From Bathymodiolus thermophilus thioautotrophic gill symbiont (GTDB taxonomy: Bacteria; Pseudomonadota; Gammaproteobacteria; PS1; Pseudothioglobaceae): a stretch of 64,000 nucleotides of DNA. Where the stretch lies: NCBI RefSeq assembly GCF_003711265.1, contig NZ_CP024634.1:620001-684000 (forward strand), written 5' to 3'. This document shows positions 3,492-12,772 of this stretch, in pieces. Made by a program: the position numbers and the translations under genes. The first letter of the stretch is position 1. Every line of letters begins with the position of its first letter. Below the pieces are notes generated by a model. The model was not told where the DNA came from and did not search any database. It was given only the letters and a program-made list of their open reading frames with translations.

Positions 3492-5297
3492 TTGCCTTAT
3501 ATTAGTCAAAATTTTATTAACGATTTACCCAATCAAATTGACATTGTTGATTTGATTAGTAAGCGCTTAACGCTTAAAAAAACGGGCAATAGTTATCGTG
3601 CGCCTTGTCCATTTCATGGGGGCAAAAATCCCAATTTTGCCGTGAATGGACATGAGCAATTTTATCATTGTTTTAAATGCGGTGAGAGCGGTGGTGCAAT
3701 TAGTTTTGTGCAAAAGTACGATAATTTAGACTTTGTGGAGGCGGTTGAAGCCATTGCCAGTGAATTTGGGCTTAAGGTTGAATACGACAGCAAGACCAAA
3801 CCCGTTGACCCTAAATTAGAGCGCTATCGTGCTTTATCTGAGAAAGTGAGTGAATTTTACCAGCAACAACTTAAAAATTCTCCAGCCAAAGAAAAGGCCG
3901 TGAATTATGCAAAAAATCGAGGCATTAACGGCGAAATTGCCAAGCGTTTTGATTTGGGTTTTGCACTACCGAGTAACAAGGATTTGTTGTTACATTTTGA
4001 GAATACTCAGCAGGATGTTGCTGATTTAAAGGCGCTAGGGCTGATTAAAACTGGCGAATATGGCGACTACGATTTTTTTCGTGATCGCCTAATGTTCCCT
4101 ATTCACAATAGCAAGGGCAGTGTTATTGCCTTTGGTGGGCGTGCATTTGATAACAAGGCTAAGGCGAAGTATCTTAATTCTCAAGAAAGTCCTATTTTTT
4201 CTAAGTCAAGAGAGTTGTATGGCTTACATCATGCACGCAAGTATTCACGCACAACAGACTATATTTTGGTTGTTGAGGGTTATATGGATGTGGTTGCATT
4301 ACATCAGGCTGGCATTACCAAGGTGGTGGCAACATTAGGGACAGCAACCACTCCAGAGCATTTGCAAACACTGGCACGCACCACCAGCGTTATTGTCTTT
4401 TGTTTTGATGGGGACGATGCAGGGCGTGCGGCTGCTTGGAAGGCGTTGAAGATTGCATTGCCGATGATTAAATCAGGTTTGCTGGTTAAATTTTTATTTT
4501 TACCTGATGGCGAAGATCCTGATACTTTGGTCAAAAAAGAGTCAACATCGGCATTTGAAAAGCGCATTAAAACAGCGCAGGCATTGTCAAAATTTTTATT
4601 TGCACACATTCAGGCAGAAGTGGATTTTAATACTATTGAAGGCAAAACCTCATTTTTAGAAAAAGTATTGCCGCTGATTGCATTGGTAACTTATAACACT
4701 TATCAACAACAGTTGTTAGAAGGGGTGGCACAAGTTGTAGGGCAAAGTATTGAGCAAGTTAAAGCCGTTTTTACCAAGCAAGTAAAGGAGGTACAAATAC
4801 AGGCACCAGTCGTAACAGAATACGAGCCACCTATGCCTGACTTTGCAGATGAGGGTTATGGGGATTATGCTGAATTTAACGCTGCACCTAGGGAAAATAA
4901 GTCGGTTAACGCCTCAATGGCAAAAATGATTAGTTTGTTATTGAATTATCCGTCGCTGGCTGATGGTACTGTTGAAGTGCGGGTGCGTAATATTGAAAAA
5001 TCAGAAGTGTTATTGGAATTAGTGCGTTCAGCGGAAATAGAGGAAGATATTTCGCAAGAAGATTTAATTCAGCCTTTTAAGTCTAAGTCAGGCGTTTATC
5101 AGCGTCTACAAGAATTGTGTGTACTTACACCATATTTAAGTGAAAACCAAGCCAAGGATGAATTCTTATCTGCCTTAAATGCAGCAGAACGATATCAGGA
5201 AAGTGCGAGAGTAAAAGACTTAATATCAAATGCTAATACGGAAGAAGCACAGCGAAAAGTAATGGAAGGCATTCAAAAAAGTAAAGGTAAAAAATAG
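3492..5297 (+). CDS. dnaG: DNA primase
   Basis: Synthesises RNA primers at the replication fork with the DnaB helicase. The 601-residue protein has the CHC2 zinc module (C39, H42, C60, C63 in CPFHGG and YHCFKCGESGG), the primase core, and TOPRIM metal-binding residues (EGYMD at 262-266, DGD at 306-308 in CFDGDDAGR). A helicase-interacting C-terminal region follows. The start is a TTG aligning with the conserved FINDL N-terminus; the ATG at 3458-3460 is out of frame. No strong Shine-Dalgarno precedes it. In E. coli dnaG sits between rpsU and rpoD; here it is divergent from the acyltransferase and convergent with ftsI, without those partners. Confidence 0.96.
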   Translation: MPYISQNFINDLPNQIDIVDLISKRLTLKKTGNSYRAPCPFHGGKNPNFAVNGHEQFYHCFKCGESGGAISFVQKYDNLDFVEAVEAIASEFGLKVEYDSKTKPVDPKLERYRALSEKVSEFYQQQLKNSPAKEKAVNYAKNRGINGEIAKRFDLGFALPSNKDLLLHFENTQQDVADLKALGLIKTGEYGDYDFFRDRLMFPIHNSKGSVIAFGGRAFDNKAKAKYLNSQESPIFSKSRELYGLHHARKYSRTTDYILVVEGYMDVVALHQAGITKVVATLGTATTPEHLQTLARTTSVIVFCFDGDDAGRAAAWKALKIALPMIKSGLLVKFLFLPDGEDPDTLVKKESTSAFEKRIKTAQALSKFLFAHIQAEVDFNTIEGKTSFLEKVLPLIALVTYNTYQQQLLEGVAQVVGQSIEQVKAVFTKQVKEVQIQAPVVTEYEPPMPDFADEGYGDYAEFNAAPRENKSVNASMAKMISLLLNYPSLADGTVEVRVRNIEKSEVLLELVRSAEIEEDISQEDLIQPFKSKSGVYQRLQELCVLTPYLSENQAKDEFLSALNAAERYQESARVKDLISNANTEEAQRKVMEGIQKSKGKK

Positions 5298-5545: not shown

Positions 5546-7426
5546 TCATTTTTTAGACAATCGCTCAATAGACTGATCACTATTTAGAATATTTTCCATG
5601 GCATCCTTAAACACCATTGCTGCAGAATTTGAGCCCCCACAGCTAGTTTTCTTTTTAGGTTTGTAGTAGGTGTAACATTTTTTTGGATAATCCAGCCTAA
5701 TAACCATAATATATTTTGGCTTTTTGACAGGCACAAAGCCAGCGAAGAAGGTGCGTTTTGCCCCATCTTTGTTGTAGCGACCATCTATGACCATCTCCGC
5801 AGTACCCGTTTTTCCTGCCACTTCATACCCTTTGATTTGAGCACGATAACCAGAGCCTTTTGAGGATGCAACTGAGTCTAATAAATCGGCAATTTTACGG
5901 GTTGATTTTTTACTAAAAACTTGCGCTCTTTGCTCGTAACTGTTGGTGTTTTTGACAAGTTTAAGCGGCGGCACGACACCTTCGTTGGCGAATACCAAAT
6001 AGGCTCTGGCAAGTTGTGCCAAATTGGTTTGCATGGGTCCATAACCAAAAGACAGTGAGCGCTTGTCTGCCAGTGACCACGAATCAGGCGTTTTTAACAC
6101 ACCGGGCGTTTCAATGCTGGGAATCAGCCCGAGTGAATGACCAAAACCTAATTGATTCCAGGTGTGATAGAACTCTTCTTTTGTCAACCTTTCGGAGACA
6201 TTAACTGTGCCAAGATTGTGTGATTTTTGTAGGATTTTTTTAATTGTTAGTTGATAATATTTATGATCAGGTTTAAGGTGTCCAATCCTTTTGGTCACAT
6301 CAATTTTTTCATCCTCAGTGGCGGTAATCTTATTTTTATCAAGTGCTAAGAGCATGGTAAATGGCTTCATAGTTGAGCCGGGGTCAACTTTATCTGACAG
6401 CACATGGTTGCGATAATTTTCTACATTGTAAATGGTTTTGTCATTTGGGTCGTCAGCAGGATAATTGACGAGTGCTAAAACCTCACCATTTGGACTCAAG
6501 ATAATAGCAGACCCTGAATTGGCATCGTGTTTTTCAACGGATTTTTTAATGGCAGTGTAAGCGTGAAATTGGGTGTTGGCATCAATGGTTAAGGTTATAT
6601 TGTTACCATGCTTGAGTTTTTTGTGAGCCACAGGGTTGAAATAAGCACTTTGAGAGGCTTGGTTGAAACTTAAGAAATCAATACCATTTTGTCCAGAAAG
6701 TGTCGGCTCAAATTCGCCTTCAATGCCAGAAACGCCTTTGCCATTATGATTAACACGACCAATTAGGGATGCTAAAGTGGCAGATTTTGGATAATATCTG
6801 CGTGTATCCCCTTGTAGTGCCACACCTTCGATTCTTTTTTGTTTGCAGGTTTTAACGGTTTTGTAAGTAGGATTGTCCTTTTTGAGTTTGGCAAAAATTA
6901 GTGCTTTATCAAGCCATTCAACTTTTTCTTTCTTTTGTTTTTCCTTGCAAATCCTTAGTCTTAGTTTTTTCAGTTTTTCTATGTTTTTAACAATAGGATT
7001 GGACAGTTTGAGATTTTTTTGAATAATAAAGTTCCTTCTGCCTCTACGCGCCTTGTTTTTTCTCTCAAGTGCCGCTCGTAATTCTGTTTCTTCCATCATT
7101 AGTGCAGTAGCGAGTTTTGGAATGAAAGCTGGCTGAATTTTGGTCACATCTAAGTTGATTTTTTTCAAAATTAAATTACTGGCAAGCACTTCCCCATTTC
7201 TATCTAAAATATCGCCACGGCGTGCTTTGGTGTGAAAAGTATGATAAGTTTGCTGGTTACCTCTTTCTTGAAGGCTAATATCGCCAGCATTCAATTGATG
7301 AATGGTAATAATTCGATAGCCAAAGCCACAGACAAGTAAGATAAAAATCCCCTTAATAATATTTTGACGGCGTGAATAATGTTGTGTTCTGGAAAATTGG
7401 AATAACGCCTTAAATTTGCCCATCAC
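5546..7426 (-). CDS. ftsI: Peptidoglycan D,D-transpeptidase FtsI (penicillin-binding protein 3)
   Basis: Septal peptidoglycan cross-linking enzyme of the divisome, anchored by one N-terminal membrane helix (about residues 24-40). Penicillin-binding active-site motifs are all present: STMK with nucleophile S351, SHN at 402-404, and KTG at 539-541. The pedestal domain motif RRGDILDRNGEVLA is at about 69-83. The protein is 626 residues, longer than the roughly 590 of E. coli. Most of the excess is a lysine-rich insertion at about 158-198, between KKLRL and IEGVALQGDTRRYYP. It overlaps ftsL by 4 bp. It is the last dcw gene here: the expected murE/murF are not downstream, where a palindromic repeat and convergent dnaG lie instead. 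Confidence 0.96.
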   Translation of the reverse strand: MMGKFKALFQFSRTQHYSRRQNIIKGIFILLVCGFGYRIITIHQLNAGDISLQERGNQQTYHTFHTKARRGDILDRNGEVLASNLILKKINLDVTKIQPAFIPKLATALMMEETELRAALERKNKARRGRRNFIIQKNLKLSNPIVKNIEKLKKLRLRICKEKQKKEKVEWLDKALIFAKLKKDNPTYKTVKTCKQKRIEGVALQGDTRRYYPKSATLASLIGRVNHNGKGVSGIEGEFEPTLSGQNGIDFLSFNQASQSAYFNPVAHKKLKHGNNITLTIDANTQFHAYTAIKKSVEKHDANSGSAIILSPNGEVLALVNYPADDPNDKTIYNVENYRNHVLSDKVDPGSTMKPFTMLLALDKNKITATEDEKIDVTKRIGHLKPDHKYYQLTIKKILQKSHNLGTVNVSERLTKEEFYHTWNQLGFGHSLGLIPSIETPGVLKTPDSWSLADKRSLSFGYGPMQTNLAQLARAYLVFANEGVVPPLKLVKNTNSYEQRAQVFSKKSTRKIADLLDSVASSKGSGYRAQIKGYEVAGKTGTAEMVIDGRYNKDGAKRTFFAGFVPVKKPKYIMVIRLDYPKKCYTYYKPKKKTSCGGSNSAAMVFKDAMENILNSDQSIERLSKK

Positions 7427-7695
7427 AAAGGCAACATTCTGATTTTACTGGGTTGTTGCATATGCAATATTTTAACGGCTTTTGCTTTGATTTTATCCCC
7501 CCGCATTTGCTCCGAATGTTCAATGAGCAACTGCTTTTGCCTGGCGATGATTTTTTGATTGTCTCGTTGTGTAGACTTTATTTTTTTGTAAAGTAAGCGG
7601 TTCTGATTGTGCCAAGTAATGGTCAAAAAAGACAGAATAACAAGCGCAATAATAAGCACGATATTAATGCGAGTAGCGGTGAATATTTTTAACAT
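7423..7695 (-). CDS. ftsL: Cell division protein FtsL
   Basis: Bitopic divisome protein of the FtsQLB subcomplex. The 90-residue product has a short cytoplasmic N-terminus, one membrane helix at about residues 10-28, and a periplasmic coiled-coil-type segment (HNQNRLLYKKIKSTQRDNQ). It ends with the typical TL-type tail reading KIRMLPL. Sequence conservation in this family is low, so the call leans on length, topology and position between rsmH and ftsI. It overlaps rsmH by 7 bp and ftsI by 4 bp, consistent with translational coupling. Confidence 0.92.
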   Translation of the reverse strand: MLKIFTATRINIVLIIALVILSFLTITWHNQNRLLYKKIKSTQRDNQKIIARQKQLLIEHSEQMRGDKIKAKAVKILHMQQPSKIRMLPL

Positions 7696-8624
7696 ACCTT
7701 GGTGGTGCGTTGAGCGATTCGTAATATGGCACTTCTGGAGCGCCTACTATTGTCTATTTCTGCCGTGCTGGCAAAAAATTTCCCTAAGTTTTTTAAGGGC
7801 ATTTGCTCATTCTCGCCCTGCATAATCGGCAACCCCTTGGGCAATTGTTTTTGCTGTGAATATTTTTGAATAAATTGCTTAACAATGCGGTCTTCAATAG
7901 AATGAAAACTAATGATTGACAAGCGACCCATTGGTGCCAGTAAGTTGAGCGTTTGTTCTAGGGTGTCTGATAGTTGCTGAAGTTCTTGATTGATAAAAAT
8001 ACGAATGGCTTGAAAAGTGCGCGTAGCAGGGTGCTTGTTCTTTTTTGTTCTAACCACACTTGCAACAATATTTGCCAGTTGTAAAGTCGTTTCTAAAGGG
8101 GCATTTTCTTGAAATCTTTTAATCGCAGTGGCAATGTGTCGACTTTTTCGCTCTTCGCCAAATTTATAAATGACATCGGCAATCTCAGTTTCACTGGCAG
8201 TAGCAAGCCACTCAGCTGCACTAATGCCACTGGTTTGGTTCATACGCATATCTAATGGACCATCTGCATTAAAACTAAAACCACGCTGGGCATTATCAAG
8301 TTGCGGAGATGAAACGCCAAGATCCATCAAAATACCGTCAACTTTCCCCAATAAATTACGCTCATTTAACAAGTGATACATATTAGAGAAAGCACTGTGA
8401 ATAACCTCTAATCGCCCATCCTTAAAATGCGCTTTTGCATAATCAATAGCCGTAATATCTTGGTCAAAGGCCATCACTTTGCCTTCGTTACCTAATTTGT
8501 TTAGAATACCTTGTGTGTGTCCACCTCGCCCAAAAGTTGCATCTATATAAATGCCGTTATCTTTGATTGCCAAACCCGTGATAGACTCATCAAACATCAC
8601 AGATTGGTGATGGTGACTGGTCAT
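7689..8624 (-). CDS. rsmH: 16S rRNA (cytosine1402-N4)-methyltransferase RsmH
   Basis: Methylates N4 of C1402 in the ribosomal decoding centre using SAM. The 311-residue protein shows HHQSVMFDESI at the N-terminus, the SAM-binding IDATFGRGGHTQGIL motif, GILMDLGVSSPQLDNAQRGFSF, and the C-terminal SFHSIEDRIVKQF block, all diagnostic of the MraW/RsmH family. It overlaps mraZ by 4 bp and ftsL by 7 bp, the conserved order at the head of the dcw cluster. Confidence 0.97.
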   Translation of the reverse strand: MTSHHHQSVMFDESITGLAIKDNGIYIDATFGRGGHTQGILNKLGNEGKVMAFDQDITAIDYAKAHFKDGRLEVIHSAFSNMYHLLNERNLLGKVDGILMDLGVSSPQLDNAQRGFSFNADGPLDMRMNQTSGISAAEWLATASETEIADVIYKFGEERKSRHIATAIKRFQENAPLETTLQLANIVASVVRTKKNKHPATRTFQAIRIFINQELQQLSDTLEQTLNLLAPMGRLSIISFHSIEDRIVKQFIQKYSQQKQLPKGLPIMQGENEQMPLKNLGKFFASTAEIDNSRRSRSAILRIAQRTTKVC

Positions 8625-9073
8625 AATGATAGTTGACTAACCGCCTCTGGAACACTTTCTTGCTTGCTAAGTGCATCAAGACTATCAAGCTGCTTATGCC
8701 ACGCATCCTCATCCCAAAGCTCAAAATTATGCCCTTGTCCACTCATAATGATTTTTTTACTAAAATTAGCGTATTCCCTCAGCGTTGCAGGGATAAGCAA
8801 TCGTGATACACCGTCCAATTCACAATCAGTCGCATGGCCAATAAGTTTACGCTTTAAGCGTTTTGTGTGAATATTCAGCGCAGGTAAAGCACTAATTTTC
8901 TTTTCAAGCACCTGCCACTCTTTCAAAGGATAAAGTAGCAAACAAGGGTCGTCTGGATGAATACTCAGCACCATCTTCCCTGCACAAATTTCATCAATTT
9001 GCCCTTGATGGCGTGTTGGAATTTTCAGCCTTCCTTTGACATCAACCGTTAAATTGTGAACCCCACGAAACAT
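8621..9073 (-). CDS. mraZ: Transcriptional regulator MraZ
   Basis: AbrB-fold DNA-binding protein that in characterised bacteria binds direct repeats upstream of its own operon. The 150-residue product starts MFRGVHNLTVDVKGR and contains two SpoVT/AbrB-like halves, the second including DGVSRLLIPATLREYA, as in the family. It heads the conserved mraZ-rsmH-ftsL-ftsI block. Here one more small gene lies 13 bp upstream of it, and 10-bp-spaced repeats resembling MraZ boxes lie upstream of that. Confidence 0.96.
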   Translation of the reverse strand: MFRGVHNLTVDVKGRLKIPTRHQGQIDEICAGKMVLSIHPDDPCLLLYPLKEWQVLEKKISALPALNIHTKRLKRKLIGHATDCELDGVSRLLIPATLREYANFSKKIIMSGQGHNFELWDEDAWHKQLDSLDALSKQESVPEAVSQLSL

Positions 9074-9086
9074 ACTATTCTGCTTT

Positions 9087-9266
9087 TTAGTGGCGCTGTA
9101 AACGCTTCTGATAAATTGCCATTACACCAAGAATAGACACGACAACAGTAATAACAAGAAAAGGCTTAAAATTATTAATTTGCGCCTGTTGAGTACCTAT
9201 TAACGCTAATGCGCTCAATGAAACGGTTGATAATAATCCGCCAATAACAAATCGTTTTAATTGCAT
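9087..9266 (-). CDS. Small membrane protein upstream of mraZ, function unknown
   Basis: A 59-codon ORF, ATG at 9266 and TAA at 9087-9089. A GGAG ribosome-binding site lies 7 nt before the start. The product begins MQLKRFVIGG and ends YQKRLQRH. It has two hydrophobic stretches (about residues 6-24 and 34-52) joined by a short polar loop, and a basic C-terminus: a small two-helix inner-membrane protein or a signal-anchor product. It lies 13 bp upstream of mraZ on the same strand, between mraZ and the candidate MraZ operator, so it is probably the first gene of the dcw operon. I do not recognise the family. The good ribosome-binding site and operon position support it being real. Confidence 0.7.
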   Translation of the reverse strand: MQLKRFVIGGLLSTVSLSALALIGTQQAQINNFKPFLVITVVVSILGVMAIYQKRLQRH

Positions 9267-9295
9267 TGTTCACTCCATTTTTAGATATTAAAAAT

Positions 9296-9331
9296 ACATT
9301 TTATACCACTTTATTCCACTTATATACACTT
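9296..9331 (-). promoter_or_regulatory. Candidate MraZ operator (10-bp-spaced direct repeats)
   Basis: Read on the minus strand there are successive hexamers AAGTGT (9331-9326), AAGTGG (9321-9316), AAGTGG (9311-9306) and a weaker AAATGT (9301-9296), each offset by exactly 10 bp. Known MraZ boxes are three or four TGGG/GTGG-type direct repeats with the same period, and an AAAGTG(T/G) version is described in mollicutes. A TATAAA overlapping the last repeats may be the -10 element, so binding would block transcription of the 59-residue ORF and mraZ. Confidence 0.65.
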
Positions 9332-9776
9332 TTAATTATTTTAAAGACAAGTAAGGCACCTCGTCAAAACGCCATCTAAGCAAACAAAAAACTAAAAACT
9401 AAAGAGCAACCTTGTCCAAATTAAACCGCAAAAGCCCATATAGCGACCATTTTTATGGAATAATACAAGCACTTATGAATATACTACTAAATCACAACAC
9501 ACCTCACAATTTAACAACCCTTGCCTTCCTGTTAACCACTATCGGCTACTCTACTCGTGGTTTTTTTACCGCTCGATTTCATTTCAATGCGATTTTATTT
9601 GGTATCCGTACCTTCGTCTTTAGTGTTGCCAACTCTTCTGTGCATCACCACACCTATATATTTAGTATTAAATATTTTCCCTGCAAAAAAAACCATGCAA
9701 AACTCCAATCCAACAAAGATTTTTCCAAAATTTAACAAAACTTTCATTTTAATTCAACAAAACGGAGGCAGTCTCA
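9332..9776. other. Intergenic region without a supported gene
   Basis: AT-rich spacer between the divergent dcw operon and the surface-protein gene. Two overlapping open frames on the + strand (9412-9735 and 9557-9796) have no recognisable motif, no convincing ribosome-binding site and odd composition, so I do not call them. No tRNA, strong repeat or terminator was seen. Confidence 0.5.
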
Positions 9777-9898
9777 ATGAAAAGCAAAAGATGTAGCGAA
9801 TTAAGCGACCAACTTAAGGCAATGAGTGTGTCTGCCTTTACCAAGCCCTAAAAACATCAGCCGAACTCAGATCCATCCTCGTTGCCGATACTATTTAA
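9777..9898 (+). pseudogene. Possible frameshifted small ORF
   Basis: An ATG at 9777 with a perfect GGAGG 8 nt upstream opens a 24-codon frame ending at 9849-9851. Slipping one base back near 9845 continues the protein for about 18 codons (ALKTSAELRSILVADTI) to a TAA at 9896-9898. The strong ribosome-binding site and helical, amphipathic composition suggest a former or very small peptide gene of about 40 residues. The reading is uncertain, and it could be noise. Confidence 0.25.
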
Positions 9899-9931
9899 TT
9901 TTCATTTTCATTCTTAACCTCGGAGTTTATT

Positions 9932-12772
9932 ATGAACACATTTAATCGTTTTATTATCGCCACTTTATTGGTTTTATTTACCTCACAGGCATTTGCCGTC
10001 AAGCCACAAATTACAGATGTCAAAAGAATAAACCCCAAGACGGTTCTTGTTACTTTTGACCAATCTGTTAAAATGCATTCAACTAACCTTGACCCTAATC
10101 GTGGCGTGGCAGTAAACTTATATTCCAAAGCTGCACCTGGTTCTGGCGATGCCGACACATACTATTTAGGAGATTCTCAGGCTAATACTGTTTTTTTTCC
10201 TATAGCACTACAAAACCCAGTTGATGGTTACAGTCGACAGATAAAAATCTTATTTGGAGAGGATAGTTTTAAATTAGCTGACGAGAGTAATAAGGCTTCA
10301 GTTATGTTGTTTATTGGTGCTATATCTTTCGAAAACAAAAAACAAGAGCAAGGCGATCAATCGTATCGCAGTATTGTTACGCTTTCTGTTAGTTACGACT
10401 TCGCTGTTTTATCCGCTAGTACTTTTAGTGTTGACGAAGGTGTTAGTTTTACTTACATCCTTTATGGCAACGATGGTGGCGCTTCTTTTGACCTTGTTGA
10501 AGGTGACAGCAGTGTATTCCAATTCAGCGGTAACAACAACGAAATCTTAGACTTTAACGGCACCAACACTAACTACGAGAGCGACAAAAAAACCTATATC
10601 GCCAAAATCAAAGTCTCTCTCCCTGCCCACCCAGGTGCTTATTACACCATTGTCGTTACTATTAACAATATCTTTGAAAGTAATATCGCCATCGTTAAGG
10701 ATCAATCTTTTGGTTTATCAACTAATGCGCCTATTGGTACATTAGTTGGCACAGTTGCAGTAACAGGAGACAGTGCAAATGCCTTTAACATTACCAATAA
10801 CAATGGTTTGTTTGCTATCACTAACTCTGGTCGTATTACCAATGTTGCCATATTAACTACACCTGCCTCCTATGCACTCAATATTGAAGTTACTGGTAAC
10901 GATTCTCCTGCCGTCGCAACCGCCTCAGTAACCATTAATATAAATCCCAACTCAGAGCCTGCCAGTATTAACAACATTGACATTAGTGTTGATGAAAATA
11001 TGAACACCACAGTTCTTGTTATCAGTGCCAACGATACTACTGTCCCAGCACAAACTCTAACTTACAGTATCTCAGGCGACGATCAAGACAAGTTTGACCT
11101 TGTTGACAACACCCTTACCTTTAAAAATCCACCTGACTACGAAGAAAAAACCACCTACAGTCTAACTCTAGAAGTCTATGACACCATCTCCATCACATAC
11201 AAGCCTATCGTTATCACCATTCTCAACATTAAAGAAAAGACCCTTGCCATTGACGACTCAATCCTATCCGTCAATAAAAACGCACCCGTAAATACTGTTA
11301 TCGGCAATGTAAATGCCACAGGGGAAATAGCAACCTATGCCATTACTAGCGGTAATAATGACAGTTTTTTTAAAATCAACAACCAGGGAAGTATCCAACT
11401 GGCAAAGAGCTTAGCACAAGAAACCGCCTTAAGTTATCACTTTGTAGTAAAAATTACCGGCAACGATGCGGATGACAAAACCGCCCAAATCACCATTAAT
11501 ACCATCATCCAGCCCACTGTCAACCTAACCAACCGCAATATCACACTCGGCGCAGCAATTGGCGAAGTCATAGGTATTTTATCCACCGCCAATGCAAACA
11601 GTACCGATTTAACCTACAGCATTGAAAACAATGACTATTTTGAAATCATTGACAATAAGTTAAAAATCAAAAAAGTTACCACCACCCCAGGTACGCACCA
11701 AATCACCATTACCGCCAGTAATAACACCCAAGCCATCGCCACACAAAACTTTACCATTACTATAATTCCCACATTAATAATTAGCCAGTTCACCATTACC
11801 CAAGATGAAAACAAAGGTCGTCTAATTAAAAAAAGTGGTGGTAATGTTACTGTAAGAGCCACAGCAAGCGCAGGAACCTACCATTGGGATTCTGAACTTA
11901 CTAATAATAGTAATAACGACAACATATTTGTTTTTAACCCTAATTCTTTGGATATCGGCACCCAAACCATTAAATTAAAAGTTACCATTGGTAATGCCTT
12001 TGTAGAAAGAGTGTTACAACTTAAATTGGTTGAAAATTACCCCGCCAATTGGAGCGATACAAATGGCAACGGCGTCTCCGACAACAAAGAATCAGGCGAC
12101 ACCCTTAACCAACAATTACCTGCTGGTGCAAATAAAAAAATCACCAGCCTAACAACAGGCACTAGACTATTGCTAGGCATCATGGGTGAAAACTCTGGAC
12201 ACTTAACCTTTGCTCAAATGGAACAATATACAAGAGATAATCATTTGACTACTATTGCCAAAGACACTTCAACCACTGGCGATATTTACGACTATGTTGT
12301 CGAAGGTCTGAGTGTTGCTGGCGCCTCCACTGAAGTAATTATTGAACTCAGTACCGCAATCCCTGCAGAAGCAGAATTACGCAAATACTCACTAACAACT
12401 AATAGTTGGTCTAATTTTGTGACTAACGATAACAATCTATTTGTATCCAAAACCAGTGCCACTTGCACCGACGATAGCCCTTGGCAAACTGGATTAATCA
12501 AAGACGCAACCTGCCTTAAACTCACCATCAAAGACGGCGGTGAAAACGACACCGATGGCAATCAAGCTAACGGCGTCATTGAAAGCACCATCTCAATAAC
12601 AACCCCCCTCTCAATAACAACCCCCGTTATCGACAACAACAATAGCAGTAACGGCGGCGGTGGCTGTGTTTACAATCCCAACGCCGCTGCTAGATTTGAT
12701 ATTGGTTTTGTCTTATTGATGATATTAAGTGCTTATTATTTCATTAGAAGAAAGCGTTGTTTTATCCACTAA
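9932..12772 (+). CDS. Secreted cadherin-like repeat surface protein with C-terminal sorting-type anchor
   Basis: The 946-residue product has a Sec signal peptide (MNTFNRFIIATLLVLF, cleavage likely after SQAFA at about residue 23). A long region of tandem beta-sandwich repeats follows, with cadherin-type signatures such as ISVDENMN, TYSISGDDQDKFDL, and LSVNKNAPVNTVIGNV with YAITSGNNDSFFKI. Near the C-terminus are a DTNGNGVSDNKE calcium-binding-like stretch (about 709-720) and a GGGGCVYNPNA motif. A membrane helix and the basic tail RRKR end the protein. That three-part ending resembles rhombosortase/exosortase-type sorting signals. The processing enzyme class is not assignable from this window. 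Ribosome-binding site is CGGAG. Role in adhesion is inference. Confidence 0.75.
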   Translation: MNTFNRFIIATLLVLFTSQAFAVKPQITDVKRINPKTVLVTFDQSVKMHSTNLDPNRGVAVNLYSKAAPGSGDADTYYLGDSQANTVFFPIALQNPVDGYSRQIKILFGEDSFKLADESNKASVMLFIGAISFENKKQEQGDQSYRSIVTLSVSYDFAVLSASTFSVDEGVSFTYILYGNDGGASFDLVEGDSSVFQFSGNNNEILDFNGTNTNYESDKKTYIAKIKVSLPAHPGAYYTIVVTINNIFESNIAIVKDQSFGLSTNAPIGTLVGTVAVTGDSANAFNITNNNGLFAITNSGRITNVAILTTPASYALNIEVTGNDSPAVATASVTININPNSEPASINNIDISVDENMNTTVLVISANDTTVPAQTLTYSISGDDQDKFDLVDNTLTFKNPPDYEEKTTYSLTLEVYDTISITYKPIVITILNIKEKTLAIDDSILSVNKNAPVNTVIGNVNATGEIATYAITSGNNDSFFKINNQGSIQLAKSLAQETALSYHFVVKITGNDADDKTAQITINTIIQPTVNLTNRNITLGAAIGEVIGILSTANANSTDLTYSIENNDYFEIIDNKLKIKKVTTTPGTHQITITASNNTQAIATQNFTITIIPTLIISQFTITQDENKGRLIKKSGGNVTVRATASAGTYHWDSELTNNSNNDNIFVFNPNSLDIGTQTIKLKVTIGNAFVERVLQLKLVENYPANWSDTNGNGVSDNKESGDTLNQQLPAGANKKITSLTTGTRLLLGIMGENSGHLTFAQMEQYTRDNHLTTIAKDTSTTGDIYDYVVEGLSVAGASTEVIIELSTAIPAEAELRKYSLTTNSWSNFVTNDNNLFVSKTSATCTDDSPWQTGLIKDATCLKLTIKDGGENDTDGNQANGVIESTISITTPLSITTPVIDNNNSSNGGGGCVYNPNAAARFDIGFVLLMILSAYYFIRRKRCFIH

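Follow-up and report, generated by a model that had tools for sequence, protein, structure and literature searches.

MraZ is a widely conserved bacterial regulator of cell division, the purpose of which is unclear. The sequence analysed here (the window, 64,000 nucleotides) raises the question of whether a short array of direct repeats at positions 9296-9331 is the site through which MraZ controls its own operon and, if so, how that site is placed with respect to the promoter. On the minus strand, i.e. as the reverse complement of 9296-9331 read from 9331 to 9296, the array is AAGTGT-ATAT-AAGTGG-AATA-AAGTGG-TATA-AAATGT, which confirms the initial annotation in that the hexamers AAGTGT, AAGTGG, AAGTGG and AAATGT follow one another at exact 10-bp steps. 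Three of them have a GTG core, i.e. box 1 (AAGTGT, 9326-9331), box 2 (AAGTGG, 9316-9321) and box 3 (AAGTGG, 9306-9311), their assignment being based on the sequence and on relatives. The fourth (AAATGT, 9296-9301), with ATG where the others have GTG, overlaps a TAAAAT that resembles a -10 element; the four repeats are thus three good boxes and one degenerate box.

Three exact AAGTG[TG] hexamers at a 10-bp step occur once in the window (both strands) and did not appear in any of 150 simulated 64-kb sequences (first-order Markov); with up to two mismatches there are two window matches, both of them registers of the same array, versus 0.06 expected. In the entire genome (2,832,685 bp) the three-box pattern also occurs exactly once, and the sole one-mismatch match is the same array shifted by one unit. 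At up to three mismatches, 27 matches were found genome-wide compared with 13 for a reversed-pattern control, implying that the weak matches are mostly noise. No other credible MraZ target was found in the genome, the next best being one two-mismatch site (C1:1976152), with three-mismatch sites at about the control level. Given that there is no second credible site in the genome, MraZ here looks like a local autoregulator.

The array is on the same strand as mraZ, and upstream of it, at the head of a run of minus strand genes. The first open reading frame (ORF) after the array encodes 59 residues (9087-9266, with GGAG at 9273-9276) and has no Pfam or NCBIfam match; it separates the array from mraZ, which is thus not the first ORF of the operon. 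The product of mraZ (8621-9073) matches PF02381 twice and TIGR00242 (130.7 bits, with a cut-off of 98.35), and has two copies of the DxxxR motif that is a hallmark of MraZ proteins. It is followed by rsmH (mraW; 7689-8624; PF01795 and TIGR00006), by ftsL (7423-7695; PF04999 above its cut-off, TIGR02209 below its cut-off) and, as the last gene of the run, by a gene for an ftsI-type class B PBP (5546-7426; PF00905 and PF03717, with all NCBIfam matches below their cut-offs). A convergent 601-aa ORF, dnaG by eye, lies beyond ftsI (3492-5297). The Mur-ligase genes are elsewhere, none of the six PF08245 matches being less than 150 kb from the array. MraZ shares 89% identity with its counterpart in a Bathymodiolus brooksi thiotrophic gill symbiont, and the titles of other close matches name SUP05, Ca. 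Thioglobus and Ca. Ruthia, the last being symbionts of vesicomyid clams. PDB MraZ structures matched by sequence are 1n0e and its relatives, and 9qlr, 9qlg, 9r4j, 9sx6 and 9sz7.

The initial annotation proposed that, if the repeats are a likely MraZ operator, they should be found upstream of mraZ in relatives. We searched family f1 of our genome searches (the SUP05/Thioglobus group, which we take to be the Thioglobaceae; 61 genomes including the source genome, G000) with the pattern TGK-N7-TGK-N7-TGGTATAWAAT, and manually classed mraZ as intact in 41 genomes, broken in 6, diverged but open in 2 and not found in 12. The exact array with TATAWAAT is present in 39/61 genomes, and all 39 placed exact matches (one site per genome) are on the mraZ strand, with mraZ or its remnant following 10-249 bp downstream; a further exact copy in G024, at the end of a contig, is unplaced. 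Allowing one mismatch, the array precedes mraZ in 41/41 genomes with intact mraZ versus 3/20 others. The intact class comprises 37 exact arrays and four with one mismatch (G007, G008, G015 and G017), whereas the three others are all from the broken class (exact in G073 and G080, one mismatch in G022), with none in the diverged open class or where mraZ was not found. One-mismatch matches away from mraZ also occur (G002, G003, G005, G022 and G029), and a control search with the pattern reversed matched 7/61 genomes at the same threshold. Among the 12 mraZ-less genomes only G019, G021 and G033 are clearly informative, and no array was found in G019 (614 bp upstream of rsmH), G021 or G033. The absence of mraZ is uninformative in G010, G025, G028, G060 and G076, as rsmH was likewise not found there, and G001 (rsmH near a contig end) and G059, G078 and G081 (mraZ-less genomes outside the rsmH search) are uninformative as well. 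Fisher tests gave 9e-10 (exact) and 2e-12 (up to one mismatch), values that are descriptive only because the relatives are not independent. The array is thus conserved with mraZ and decays without it, the exceptions being G073 and G080 and kinship being uncorrected.

Because the array is unique, lies just upstream of a genuine mraZ operon and is conserved where mraZ is intact, we consider it highly probable from the sequence comparisons that the repeats are the predicted operator of MraZ, an ordinary kind of element; the proposal of the initial annotation is thus supported both by the real mraZ downstream and by the way in which the array tracks intact mraZ genes. How far the operator extends is a separate matter. 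It may well be that box 4 makes no contact with MraZ and is merely the end of the -10 element, leaving an operator of three boxes, although we lean slightly the other way. The GTG of box 4 is not conserved, and G012 and G077, in which mraZ is intact, have ATT at this position; on the other hand, 39 of 45 distinct family sequences retain the TG of box 4, and genus g3 reads ATGG there, as do most of its boxes 2 and 3. The six sequences without the TG are those of G012, G065, G073 and G077, all of genus g2, together with L025 and L030.

With respect to promoter position, we compared family sequences with those of other gammaproteobacteria, using -10 and -35 weight matrices that are approximate. 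Column conservation was obtained from an alignment anchored on NTGGT[AT]TA[AT]AAT, so that it is circular for the columns of the anchor; the promoter test was therefore repeated on arrays located without promoter letters. Four sequences, all from G080 (L083, L127, L129 and L132), gave no anchor in this alignment, and G080 is instead covered in the decay series below. The family set of 44 sequences leaves out duplicates and matches that do not start at MraZ residue 1 (e.g. L058); array scores are at least 12.9 in 43/44, a level reached by 0/880 shuffles; the exception is L118 (G065), where mraZ is broken and an array is not clearly recognisable (score 9.6). The comparison set of 33 comprises E. 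coli and 32 other gammaproteobacterial sequences, i.e. 29 loci from the genome search (44 genomes besides the source matched, 15 weaker ones without a locus being left out) and three from an MraZ protein search. Clear GTGG-type arrays with a 10-bp step are present in 29 of these 32 (score at least 13.5; 0/640 shuffles), and L151, L153 and L164, which score no higher than the best shuffle (12.5), have doubtful arrays.

The two sets differ in where the best sigma-70 -10 element falls. In 34/44 family sequences it lies 23 bp or more beyond the G of box 1, where the array ends, and in 30 of these exactly at +26; it is before or at box 1 in 8/44 and just after box 1 in 2/44. In the comparison set, including E. 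coli, it is at or before box 1 in 32/33 sequences (18 of them exactly at -4), and in none of the 33 does it coincide with the array's end. The -10 outside the family is typically TATAGT running into box 1 (TATAGTG), whereas the TAAAAT of the family merges into the last box (TAAAATG); relative to the 10-bp grid, the register of the -10 is identical in both. In family arrays found without promoter letters, TATA directly follows the third counted box in 40/44, compared with 24 and 14 different forms of the spacers after boxes 1 and 2. The -10 predicted by analogy with the family arrays in the source genome is TAAAAT at 9298-9303 on the minus strand (TATAAT in some relatives), overlapping box 4. 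An extended -10 reading of GTGGTATAAAAT was tentatively set aside in favour of TAAAAT, since relatives carrying TATATAAT have a perfect TATAAT when read in that register. In 6/44 family sequences the gap separating boxes 1 and 2 contains TTGAAA, 16 bp upstream of TAAAAT; by eye, the source genome has a poor -35 (TATATA) where one would be expected. Genus g3, represented by eight sequences, has NTGG in most of its later boxes, and 6-7 bp separate the end of TATAAAAT from the ATG of mraZ, from which we infer a putatively leaderless mraZ message. On the basis of these promoter predictions, the array in family f1 probably lies inside the core promoter, with the predicted -10 overlapping the weak box 4, and its position relative to the predicted -10 likely differs between family f1 and other gammaproteobacteria, which is a new feature.

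Genus g2, of clam symbionts, is losing mraZ, and in it the boxes are lost stepwise, with TATAAAAT tending to outlast them. In G012 and G077 mraZ is open and three boxes are present; G073 and G080 retain the array despite a broken mraZ, the upstream sequence of G073 being common to L058 (Ca. Ruthia); in G065 and G022 mraZ is broken and one 10-bp unit is lost, with TATAAAAT retained; in G029 mraZ is fragmented and the boxes are lost, with TATAAAAT again retained; and in G033, G058, G061 and G069 no recognisable array was found. These lineages thus provide a natural decay series that separates bases lost with MraZ from bases kept. The stepwise loss, in few genomes, is as would be expected for boxes serving MraZ and TATAAAAT serving RNA polymerase. 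The best stretch in G058 (20/28) may be a remnant of the array. The open mraZ frames of G058 and G061 (L124 and L125) are strongly diverged (47% and 40% identity) and have no recognisable array; they are either dying genes or encode an MraZ with a changed job.

The location of the array inside the promoter has to be weighed against the usual gammaproteobacterial layout, in which a working promoter would lie upstream (TTGACG-18-TAAAAT, 9338-9367, minus strand), MraZ would block the start region and TATAAAAT would be only the A+T-rich part of box 4. This candidate scores best in the source genome (10.8), unlike the situation in 34/44 of the family, and matches the consensus at 10/12 positions (3 promoter-like sites found versus 2.3 expected); moreover, the distance from the start of its -10 to the G of box 1 is 14 bp, close to the 13 bp of E. 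coli. We nevertheless regard it as unlikely. Neither of its hexamers is present at that position in nine other sequences of the same genus, whereas TATA[AT]AAT (TTTAAAAT in L030) follows the array throughout the family, even where the boxes are NTGG and MraZ identity is 56-63%. The retention of TATAAAAT in G029 despite the loss of its boxes also argues against an upstream promoter, as does its distance from the mraZ ATG in genus g3, which is that of a leaderless -10. A chance repeat, or the site of another regulator, might be entertained given short boxes in A+T-rich DNA, but is highly improbable in the light of the link to mraZ across 61 genomes and the loss of the array with mraZ decay, a chance repeat being excluded by the single window match and the simulations described above.

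Comparison with known MraZ sites supports assignment of the array as an ordinary kind of MraZ operator, probably with a position that differs from that in the other gammaproteobacteria examined. Such sites consist of 7-nt repeats with a GTG core and 3-nt spacers (PMC7761207; PMC5282649), and MraZ represses its own gene cluster (PMC8475190; PMC7761207). E. coli Pmra (NC_000913.3) resembles the array studied here in having direct GTGG boxes with a 10-bp step, just upstream of mraZ and on the same strand; the main difference is in the seventh base, the boxes being GTGGG in E. coli and GTG[GT] here. The E. coli boxes follow a predicted TTGACA-18-TAAACT, whereas in family f1 the predicted -10 is at the end of the array, and the source genome, unlike E. 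coli, has the 59-aa ORF before mraZ. PmraBc of Burkholderia cenocepacia likewise has, upstream of mraZ, a set of four GTG repeats of 7 nt separated by 3 nt; MraZ shifts a 250-bp fragment that holds the repeats, which were found by inspection (PMC7761207). Its repeats follow the putative -10, as those of E. coli do, and cover the transcription start (PMC7761207), unlike the arrangement predicted for family f1. The mollicute site, (AAAGTGKN3)3 (PMC5282649), has nearly the same box and 10-bp period as the array here. Mycoplasma genitalium has a single MraZ site, in the mraZ promoter region, and mollicute mraZ clusters typically include ftsZ (PMC8475190), which was not found in family f1. The mollicute layout relative to the mraZ -10 could be the same as that in family f1. 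The suggestion of the initial annotation that the boxes are closer to the mollicute AAAGTG[T/G] form than to the E. coli TGGG form holds letter by letter, but E. coli and 29/32 other gammaproteobacterial sequences have GTGG-type arrays with the same 10-bp step.

By analogy with these systems, an MraZ ring would bind to one face of the DNA, on which the boxes recur once per turn; it would contact the three with GTG[GT] and make a weak contact with the fourth. As the array probably spans the core promoter, from about -35 to the -10 TAAAAT that box 4 overlaps, bound MraZ would block RNA polymerase binding itself, and so repress its own operon, i.e. the 59-aa ORF, mraZ, rsmH, ftsL and ftsI, all of which would be expressed when the MraZ level falls.

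No FtsZ gene was found in the source genome, and no tubulin/FtsZ-family gene was found in any of the 61 family genomes, some of which are incomplete (down to 77%); the same search found such a gene in 4/4 other gammaproteobacteria and in 13/14 control genomes. Division without FtsZ has been reported for a free-living SUP05 isolate (PMC6509183), and clam symbionts are likewise described as lacking ftsZ (PMC6952346). MraZ thus persists in the family without FtsZ as a target and, since MraZ, its operator and, in the source genome, rsmH-ftsL-ftsI remain, MraZ appears separable from control of the Z-ring. We somewhat favour a scheme in which, in the FtsZ-less SUP05/Thioglobus family, the mraZ promoter moved through the operator by about three helical turns (30 bp) while keeping its register, so that the -10, once fused to the first box (TATAGTG), is now fused to the last (TAAAATG). 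Repression would thereby have changed from a block over the start site to occupation of the core promoter, and in one genus the mraZ message would have become leaderless; the switch would have outlived FtsZ, its conserved job being the mraZ-rsmH-ftsL-ftsI unit. In the open-licence literature we found no account of an MraZ operator in the SUP05/vesicomyid group; what is added here is that the array probably lies inside the promoter, that it decays together with mraZ and that it has persisted in the absence of FtsZ.

The 59-aa ORF, with which the division operon would begin, encodes a hydrophobic product with relatives in genera g1 and g2 (including L004-L008, L010, L011, L017, L018 and L024) at about 54-86% identity by tblastn, some of those in g2 being broken. 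Other family members (L012, L013, L015, L016, L020, L023, L038 and others) have an ORF of about 25 aa at the same place upstream of mraZ, after a purine-rich stretch (e.g. MEALLQTFIYASAAVILSLGFATIV in L055). Across 19 distinct 25-codon sequences of this ORF, pN is 0.20 compared with a pS of 0.48, which suggests that it may encode a conserved one-helix microprotein. On the other side of the array, a 946-aa protein with a JDVT-CTERM domain (28.7 bits, with a cut-off of 27) is encoded on the plus strand (9932-12772) and transcribed away from the division operon. The GC skew of the surrounding bin (8001-12000) is -0.20, compared with positive values in 14 of the 15 other 4-kb bins.
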